A program made the position numbers and the translations under genes. The notes under the pieces are model-generated. The model was not told the origin of the DNA, ran no database searches, and saw only the letters and a program-made list of their open reading frames with translations. Positions 26,907 to 28,685 of a DNA stretch of 64,000 nt are shown here, one piece after another; the first letter of the stretch is position 1, and each line of letters begins with the position of its first letter. The stretch comes from Pseudarthrobacter sp. Fe7 (lineage in GTDB: Bacteria > Actinomycetota > Actinomycetes > Actinomycetales > Micrococcaceae): contig CP099977.1 of the NCBI GenBank assembly GCA_024372495.1, forward strand, positions 1,240,001 to 1,304,000, given 5' to 3'.

Positions 26907-27225
26907 TCACTGCTGCCGGGACCTGGCGCGCCTCAACGCCCGGTGGAGTTCCACGTTTGCCGCCTCGAGTTCCAGGACCTTGGCAACCCCTGCCAGGTTC
27001 AGCCCCTCCTCAAGGAGCCTGGCCGATCCGCAGCAGCACGGCAATGTCATCGTCACTGTATTGGCGCGTGCCGCCCGCCGTCCGCAGGGGCGTGAGCAGC
27101 CCCCTGGTCTCGTAGAACCGGATGTTCTGCTGCCCGGTCCCCGTCAGCTCCGCGGCGACCGAAATGGCGTACAGGGCCCTTGGGCCGGGCGGACGTGCAC
27201 CACGTCCCGCAGCTGGTTCTGACAT
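26907..27225 (-). CDS. MerR-family heat-shock regulator (HspR-like), +1 frameshift
   Basis: Corrected length 105 residues. MerR helix-turn-helix ALYAISVAAELTGTGQQNIRFYETRGLL, wing GGTRQYSDDDIAVLLRI, then QLLEEGLNLAGVAKVLELE, close to HspR. CAGCTCC near 27018 reads CAGGCTCC (plus strand GGAGCCTGG), ending the raw frame early. GGGAG precedes the chosen ATG at 27225. It is divergent from hsp20 and likely represses it and itself. Confidence 0.82.
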
Positions 27226-27287
27226 TTCCACTCCCAAAATCGCTCCGGCCTGTGTCTTGCCTCAGTTTCCCACGAGTGCTATAAAAA

Positions 27288-27328
27288 ATCTATATCCACC
27301 ACCATAGATCGATGCGGTGGATATAGAT
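27288..27328. promoter_or_regulatory. 13-base inverted repeat between hspR and hsp20
   Basis: ATCTATATCCACC (27288-27300) and GGTGGATATAGAT (27316-27328) are perfect arms around a 15-base spacer. It differs from the published HspR box (CTTGAGT-N7-ACTCAAG) but lies centrally in the divergent promoter region, so it is the natural candidate operator of this MerR protein. Confidence 0.75.
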
Positions 27329-27367
27329 GAGCGCAGATCCAACACTTGGAAGCTGAAGGAGTGGGAA

Positions 27368-27797
27368 ATGATGCTAATGCGTACCGACCCGTTCCGTGAG
27401 CTGGACCGGCTCACGCAGCAGGTCTTTGGCACCGCCGCGCGTCCGGCTGCCATGCCGATGGACGCCTGGCAGGAGGACGGTGAGTTCGTGGTGGCGTTCG
27501 ACCTTCCCGGCGTGAAGGTTGACTCGCTGGACCTGAACATCGAACGGAATGTGCTGACCGTGAGGGCCGAGCGCCAGGACCCCACGCAGCCGAATGTGGA
27601 GCCTCGTGGCGTCCGAGCGTCCCCGCGGCGTGTTCAGCCGCCAGTTGATCCTTGGCGACACCCTGGACACCGGGAAGATCAAGGCCAGCTACGACCAGGG
27701 CGTCCTGACACTGCGGATCCCGGTGGCCGAACAAGCCAAGCCGCGCAAGATCGAGATCCACACCCAGCAGGACGCGATGCAGCAGATCGGCACGTAG
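27368..27797 (+). CDS. Small heat-shock protein (Hsp20/alpha-crystallin), +1 frameshift
   Basis: Corrected length 142 residues. Alpha-crystallin domain: [51 protein letters not shown] and [20 protein letters not shown]. It is an ATP-independent holdase chaperone. GAGCTCG near 27601 reads GAGCCTCG; removing one C gives [18 protein letters not shown] precedes the ATG. Confidence 0.88.
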
Positions 27798-27863
27798 GGC
27801 CGGGCTTACGAGCCTGTGCCCCCGCGGGTCACGGCGGGGGCACAGGCGGAACAGGAGGCTGGA

Positions 27864-28241
27864 ATGGCTGATGTCCCCAATTACTACACCGTCCTGGGGG
27901 TAGGCCGGGACGCCACCCCGCAACAGATCTCCCATGCGTACCGGGCACTCATGCGCAGCCACCACCCTGACATGGACGGCCGGCAGGCGGGCGGGGACAA
28001 CCAGGCCGCGGCAAACCAACCCGCAAGGTCGGGCGCTCCCACCCAGGGCGACGAACTCCTGCGGATCATGCAGGCGTTCGACGTCCTGCGCGATCCCGGG
28101 CGCCGCGCCGACTACGACAGGCGGTTGGCGGCAGCGGCACCCATCATCATCCCGGTCCGGAGAACCCGCAGCACCGGCGCACCATCCGGGCCTGCCATCC
28201 GCGTCACCCCGGTGCAGTGGGAAAGCGGGCCCTGGGCCTGA
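27864..28241 (+). CDS. Small J-domain protein
   Basis: 125 residues. Residues 1-90 are a J-domain, [30 protein letters not shown] with the HPD triad, widened by a Gln/Ala-rich loop before [25 protein letters not shown]. No zinc-finger or substrate domain. In place behind hsp20 it may link the holdase to DnaK. Confidence 0.85.
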
Positions 28242-28307: not shown

Positions 28308-28685
28308 ATGAGCGACTGGCGGCGCTACGATTCACATCTCATCCCTGCGTTCCACGAACGCTTTGAGCAGCGCTGGGGTCCGGGAACGGCACCCTTCCTG
28401 GACCCCGAGGCCCACGAGCAGCCGCTGCCGCGCGCGCAATGGATCAATCCGGCCACCGGCGCTGCCCTTGCGGTGGTCCCGGTATGGACGGCCGACGAGA
28501 GGCAGCAGCGTTCCTTTGGAGTGTTCTACCTGCCACCGGCGGGGGACATCTGGGTCCTGCGGCCCGGCTTCACCGGATACCTTGAACCGTCCGACGGCGA
28601 CTCGGAGCACCTGGTGACCCTGCGTAATGACGCCTTCCGCAAGGCAGTGGCGCACGCCAAGGAGTTCCTTTTCGGTTCACAGTAA
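28308..28685 (+). CDS. Hypothetical protein (125 aa)
   Basis: A soluble 125-residue protein: FHERFEQRWGPGTAPFLDPE, then PATGAALAVVPVWTADERQQRSFGVFYLPPAGD and a C-terminal helix. AAGGAGG precedes the ATG. Probably the last gene of the heat-shock unit. The family is not recognised. Confidence 0.7.
   Translation: MSDWRRYDSHLIPAFHERFEQRWGPGTAPFLDPEAHEQPLPRAQWINPATGAALAVVPVWTADERQQRSFGVFYLPPAGDIWVLRPGFTGYLEPSDGDSEHLVTLRNDAFRKAVAHAKEFLFGSQ

Follow-up and report, generated by a model that had tools for sequence, protein, structure and literature searches.

In Streptomyces, RheA is a dedicated repressor encoded beside the Hsp20 gene hsp18. The locus described here likewise has a putative dedicated repressor gene next to an Hsp20 gene, but the RheA protein and its operator differ from those of the HspR-like system considered below. 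The HspR/HAIR circuit of actinobacteria (dnaK, clpB, acr2) consists of an HspR-type MerR repressor, chaperone genes and an inverted-repeat operator in the promoter, and the present locus appears to be built from the same elements. Excerpts of one report state that HspR of M. tuberculosis also controls the Hsp20 gene acr2, and that DnaK serves as the co-repressor of HspR (PMC8223512). Here, however, the palindrome is a different one, six orthologues of the regulator score below the cut-off for HspR, and the C-terminus is shorter in one of them (L003). Moreover, the regulator gene is divergent from hsp20 and not near dnaK, and a true HspR and HAIR-like boxes coexist with it in the same genome. 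The other heat-shock operator relevant to this comparison, CIRCE, has the consensus TTAGCACTC-N9-GAGTGCTAA, as given in an excerpt of PMC9004370.

In gamma-proteobacteria (CbpM-CbpA) and in Helicobacter pylori (CbpA-HspR), a J-domain protein has a small MerR-like partner; a kinship between CbpM and HspR has been proposed, and CbpA is reported to bind HspR in H. pylori (excerpts of PMC4063869). The same two kinds of protein are encoded together here, but CbpM inhibits its J-protein, whereas at this locus a DNA palindrome is conserved and contact with the J-protein is hypothetical. At the level of RNA, 5'-terminal stem-loops stabilise the ompA and papA mRNAs of E. coli (papers in the reference list of PMC3997798). 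In this case, too, the mRNA is predicted to open with a hairpin at its very 5' end, but the hairpin is nested with a probable operator, and its effect on decay is hypothetical. Among the matches listed from the HspR/Hsp20 literature (titles and the beginnings of abstracts, with few subscription journals), there was no description of this operator, repressor or hairpin.

The locus lies in a stretch of 64,000 nucleotides of the Pseudarthrobacter sp. Fe7 genome (contig CP099977.1, positions 1,240,001 to 1,304,000), hereafter the window, and its features are listed in Table 1. A preliminary description had drawn attention to a 13+13 inverted repeat in a divergent promoter and had taken it, as a whole, for an unusual operator. 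We suggest herein that the site probably combines two signals: a palindrome, A, which would serve as the operator of a dedicated HspR-type repressor, and a hairpin, B, which would be an element of the hsp20 mRNA and most likely a stabiliser. The HspR-like protein would sit on A, over the start site, and repress the hsp20-dnaJ-x125 genes and perhaps its own gene, and heat or damaged protein would release it. Once transcribed, the mRNA would begin with hairpin B, kept as a structure and not as a sequence, with the right half-site of A in its loop. B would then most likely protect the 5' end of the hsp20 mRNA from decay and so prolong the burst of synthesis, a leading guess that draws on the stem-loops of E. 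coli. In this scheme, where transcription starts, that the protein binds, that heat releases it, that the mRNA is stabilised and that merR is autoregulated are all inferred; comparison of sequences shows the conservation of A, the covariation of B and the scoring of the repressor apart from true HspR.

Table 1. Features of the merR-hsp20 region, in coordinates of the window
Feature	Position	Strand	Remarks
merR, HspR-like subfamily, divergent	27010..27237	-	open part of frame
-35 element TTGCCT	27257..27262	+	17 bp before -10; TTGC recurs in orthologues (by eye)
Extended -10 element TGC-TATAAA	27277..27285	+	recurs in orthologues (by eye)
Palindrome A, ATCTAT-N10-ATAGAT, probable operator of HspR-like protein	27288..27309	+	over predicted start site
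B, 5' arm	27292..27300	+	covariation; predicted 5' end of mRNA
B, 3' arm	27316..27324	+	covariation, fold prediction; loop holds right half-site of A
AGAT, extending the repeat to 13+13 in this genome	27325..27328	+	pairs with 27288-27291
Shine-Dalgarno sequence AAGGAG of hsp20	27356..27361	+	sequence
hsp20	27368..27797	+	Pfam HSP20 on both pieces; frame break near 27595
Short J-domain protein gene	27864..28241	+	Pfam DnaJ; HPD motif present
x125, conserved 125-residue protein	28308..28685	+	same cluster

The repeat itself is real and lies where it had been placed. It is perfect, with arms at 27288-27300 and 27316-27328 and a spacer of 15 nt, and it occurs once in the 4.47-Mb assembly. It is beyond chance, as 8 perfect repeats with arms of at least 13 and spacers of 3-30 occur in the window, whereas 60 simulated first-order Markov sequences contain 0.07 on average. 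The neighbours also proved to be as claimed, namely a divergent MerR protein (matching Pfam MerR_1), an Hsp20 and a J-domain protein, with dnaK not adjoining the cluster but located elsewhere in the genome. The merR gene has a probable ATG at 27225, and the C-terminal part of its product lies in another frame further left. In this assembly a frame break interrupts each of the two genes, merR and hsp20. Because the orthologues are open, the assembly is 79% complete, and short frames also replace an HSP70-like gene at another place in the genome (216 and 263 aa, compared with 724-733 in two relatives), these breaks are more likely assembly indels than signs of dead genes.

When 197 genomes from the family were searched, 30 loci were returned, the window's own included, and phmmer found hsp20 in 28, x125 in 28 and the J gene in 22 of them. 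Among 80 named loci, mostly from Arthrobacter, Pseudarthrobacter and Paenarthrobacter, all four genes were present in 62; the J gene alone was missing from 9, x125 alone from 5 and hsp20 alone from 3, and one locus had merR and hsp20 only, although some of these absences may come from contig ends or the threshold. Wherever both were present (77/77), merR and hsp20 were divergent. The x125 gene stays beside merR even without hsp20 (L023). Its product is strongly conserved but matched nothing in Pfam or NCBIfam, and its AlphaFold model, a helix, four strands and a long helix of modest confidence (mean pLDDT 72.7), had no PDB match by Foldseek at E 0.001 or better.

When the spacers of orthologous loci were read side by side, a recurring promoter layout was seen: TTGC, about 17 bp, TG-N-TATAAA, and then A directly. 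Merging of identical 130-base stretches reduced 135 upstream regions to 113 distinct ones, 109 of which were anchored on A (L026, L029, L098 and L102 were not; 4 ORFs were without the start motif). The left half, ATCTAT, occurred in 94 of the 109 anchored regions, and the right half was ATAGAT in 61 and ACAGAT in 33, again 94 together. Judged from these alignments, A is conserved as a sequence. A slightly degenerate A was found near merR in 73 of the 80 named loci; of the remaining seven, four have a weaker site and three lie on shortened contigs, for which the fixed position is not valid. The exact pattern of -10 element, A and Shine-Dalgarno sequence was present in 59 of 395 family genomes, with zero matches to a reversed control in each genome listed. 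For the merR gene, a promoter on the minus strand was sought by eye, and nothing convincing was seen.

It had been claimed that the site is distinct from the known HspR box, and the promoter agrees with that claim. No HAIR-like site with up to 3 mismatches was listed in the hsp20 promoter, the nearest one listed being inside the J gene; the pattern used below for hsp20 genes of other genera found none there either, and a CIRCE/HrcA site was absent from the window promoter when read by eye. A recurrence of the repeat near other hsp20 genes had been proposed as a check, and for palindrome A it was borne out in part. A second hsp20 of this genome (C1:1466028), without such a merR adjoining, is preceded by A with one mismatch and also has a hairpin, the arms of which differ from those of the 13+13 repeat. 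On the other hand, a third and more distant hsp20 (L184) has no A upstream. A further one-mismatch A, at C1:1553045, falls within an ORF, and no chaperone was listed in its vicinity. With two mismatches allowed, A gave 9 and 6 matches on the two strands of this genome and the reversed control gave 5 and 2; most of the loose matches are therefore background. In L088 (Arthrobacter oryzae CC159), a second hsp20 within the same locus has its own A-like site.

The arms of B vary between species while their complementarity is kept. Over 109 sequences, which are related and hence not independent, an arm paired with its own partner at -11.9 kcal/mol and with swapped partners at -8.6 (sd 0.24), and 0 of 2000 permutations were as low; a stretch further downstream showed no such difference between own and swapped pairing. 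The effect persisted when only one sequence per distinct left core was retained (n = 53; -12.8 versus -8.6 swapped, 0/5000), as well as in a 26-member panel across six families (-11.7 versus -7.0 swapped, 0/10000). Thirteen members of the panel come from outside the window's family. Fourteen loci were anchored by hand, 13 from other families plus L214 of the window's family, and the other 12 members were chosen from the 109 for variety; three of these belong to the window's genus, two being from the window's own genome, another three share a different genus, and the poorly pairing L027 is not among them. The panel does not contain L204 and L220, which nearly duplicate L203 and L215, or L212 and L217, where no site was seen by eye; nor does it take in loci without hsp20 or further loci of the window's genus that were already included. 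One member, L206, was a clear failure, in that 24 of 25 swapped partners paired better though hsp20 is present. Among the 109 loci, pairing was weaker than -7 in three that have hsp20 (L129, L027 and L075).

Covariation was also scored in two alignments without gaps, one of 22 and one of 19 sequences, which together represent 41 of 104 sequences in the two commonest registers, the registers being chosen by best match. Six and four of the nine pairs, respectively, had changed on both sides, and in both sets the covariation score exceeded those of 500/500 shuffles and of every slid version. The number of both-side changes was unremarkable in itself (47 and 69 of 500 shuffles were as high), as were further pair types (461 and 78 of 500). 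Compensatory stem changes, as expected of a structured RNA, are seen in B, and are weaker outside the order. That the arms vary yet covary would be expected of an RNA hairpin, not of a recognition sequence for a protein. G-U accounted for 26 of the 54 mismatches inside helices (0.48), compared with 0.34 (sd 0.05) in swapped sets, and none of 300 was as high; this excess favours RNA of the hsp20 strand and is a modest indicator of it. Immediately beyond the ends of the helices, G-U rose no differently from A-C, with no strand preference. The first pair of B was most often at position 6 of A (44/106; range 4-9), in a duplex search that began at position 4 of A and made an earlier start impossible. 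At the window's spacing, position 6 is 8 nt past the -10 element, so B would begin at the predicted start of the mRNA. Rfam gave six matches, all below gathering scores and none overlapping the repeat.

Loci that have lost a gene suggest that the two signals follow different partners. L059 and L061 have lost hsp20 and, with it, the hairpin (pairing no better than -3.3), but retain A upstream of the J gene; in L023, from another genus, hsp20 is lost too, an A-like site precedes x125, and the arms pair at only -5.1. Pairing is thus weaker than -7 in all three loci that kept A after losing hsp20. In L089, hsp20 is broken and A and B are both kept (B at -10.2). On the basis of about two loss events, A seems to follow the repressor, and B seems to follow hsp20. 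Outside the order, where own pairing was -9.1 versus -7.6 swapped (16/5000 as low), B was weak or patchy and A persisted; 16 of 19 loci were anchored to an A-like site there, one of them probably wrongly, by chance, and 3 had no match. In L225 an A-like site was seen by eye outside its search region.

These observations bear on what the site could otherwise be. The original proposal, in which the HspR-like protein uses the entire 13+13 repeat as its DNA operator and recognises the arms as half-sites, is now unlikely. It is true that the repeat is perfect, that it is at the promoter, and that its right arm here ends in ATAGAT, a third copy resembling a half-site. However, only 27288-27309 is conserved as sequence; the outer arms differ among close relatives and in the second copy of this genome, and covary so that complementarity is kept. 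Moreover, the loop ranges from 6 to 27 nt across loci (duplex program), a variation that a dimer on fixed half-sites would hardly tolerate. A different doubt concerns the protein: A might be bound by another regulator, the HspR-like gene being a mere neighbour, as could be argued from the second hsp20 (L174), which has A and no such merR adjoining. We give this only a small chance, because A is found together with this merR in other families and even beyond the order, because comparable hsp20 genes without merR are also without A (12/12), and because A remains between merR and the leftover genes when hsp20 is lost.

The remaining alternatives place the function in RNA. Leaders of hsp20 genes are classic sites of RNA thermometers, and B sits in such a leader; nonetheless, a thermometer or other translation switch for hsp20 is improbable. 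The Shine-Dalgarno sequence is not within B, and its predicted accessibility is nearly flat, with an unpaired probability that averages 0.57 in 108 leaders at 25 C and reaches only 0.62 at 48 C, and that runs from 0.36 to 0.41 between 20 and 48 C in the window leader. A thermometer acting on the Shine-Dalgarno sequence was rejected, as fold prediction makes its accessibility hardly dependent on temperature. It is less credible still that A and B together form an H-type pseudoknot (AUCUAU with AUAGAU, plus B) and that there is no protein operator. The four segments do follow one another as in an H-type fold, but 37 of 109 regions have ACAGAT, ACAGGT or ACAGAA as the right half while the facing left base is A in 104, so that one pair of A is broken in about a third, mostly uncompensated. 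In addition, ATCT (27288-27291, the partner of AGAT at 27325-27328) probably lies upstream of the start site. The combination of an operator A and an mRNA hairpin B is accordingly the reading that we retain as probable.

The candidate repressor had been described as HspR-like, and this holds with one qualification. The best NCBIfam match of its orthologues is HspR, but six of them, cut at the conserved N-terminus, scored 86.1, 91.4, 95.2, 86.7, 103.1 and 93.6 bits against a cut-off of 105 bits (the equivalog NF047375), the window's own broken copy being outside the scored set. True HspR scored 121 in this genome and 141 in the relative G177; its gene is on the same strand as dnaK and about 2 kb downstream of it, whereas the HspR-like gene is divergent from hsp20. 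The dnaK promoter of this genome has two HAIR-like boxes, and a third box precedes a clpB-like gene (by eye). The HspR-like protein of L003 has about 44 C-terminal residues fewer than the true HspR of the same genome (G177) and stops soon after its helical part, and the tails vary among orthologues. This shorter C-terminus makes a partner other than DnaK plausible, for example the J-protein of the operon. Taken with the reported CbpA-HspR contact in H. pylori, the proposed kinship of CbpM and HspR and the role of DnaK as co-repressor, it makes that J-protein a plausible candidate partner of the repressor, by analogy.

In other genera, the HSP20 family (PF00011) was sought in 28 genomes, mostly selected as lacking a strong merR match, and 30 loci were read. 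Twelve of the genes were comparable, that is, they encode an Hsp20 close to the window's (E < 1e-20), are from other genera and are without such a merR adjoining. A was found at none of the 12, HAIR-like boxes at 9 and CIRCE-like sites at the other 3 (by eye). The comparison is in keeping with a switch, in either direction, between control by HspR/HrcA and control by a dedicated repressor, and the earlier suggestion of a specialised heat-shock branch fits it as well. If so, one chaperone gene would be under the general HspR/HAIR system in some genera and under its own repressor in others. At hsp20 promoters of L164, L165, L167, L173 and L189, also from other genera, a HAIR-like box is accompanied by a CIRCE-like repeat, the repeat being read by eye.

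Within the order, five other families have strong matches and the same arrangement. Across the class, a match at E 1e-28 or better was present in 41 of 197 genomes, of which 36 belong to other orders, and the matches nearest the threshold may be true HspR; hsp20 was present at 19 of 19 loci from outside the order. The retention of both signals in many relatives points to a little-noticed second heat-shock branch. A bolder version is more doubtful, though conceivable: a class-wide second HspR branch for hsp20, in which 40 bases hold a DNA site and a separately selected RNA hairpin acting on the mRNA, and the J-protein is the sensor. The locus offers a candidate operator and regulator for Hsp20, the control of which is unsettled in some actinobacteria. 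It would also be a case in which a DNA site and an RNA structure share bases and can be separated experimentally.

Two minor observations may be added. One genome of another family, G547, has three strong matches to the HspR-like profile and a weaker one. Between hsp20 and the J gene of the window, at 27812-27847, one of the other seven long repeats forms a 14+14 hairpin with a loop of 8 nt and no T run after it, and this hairpin may set the ratio of Hsp20 to J-protein.
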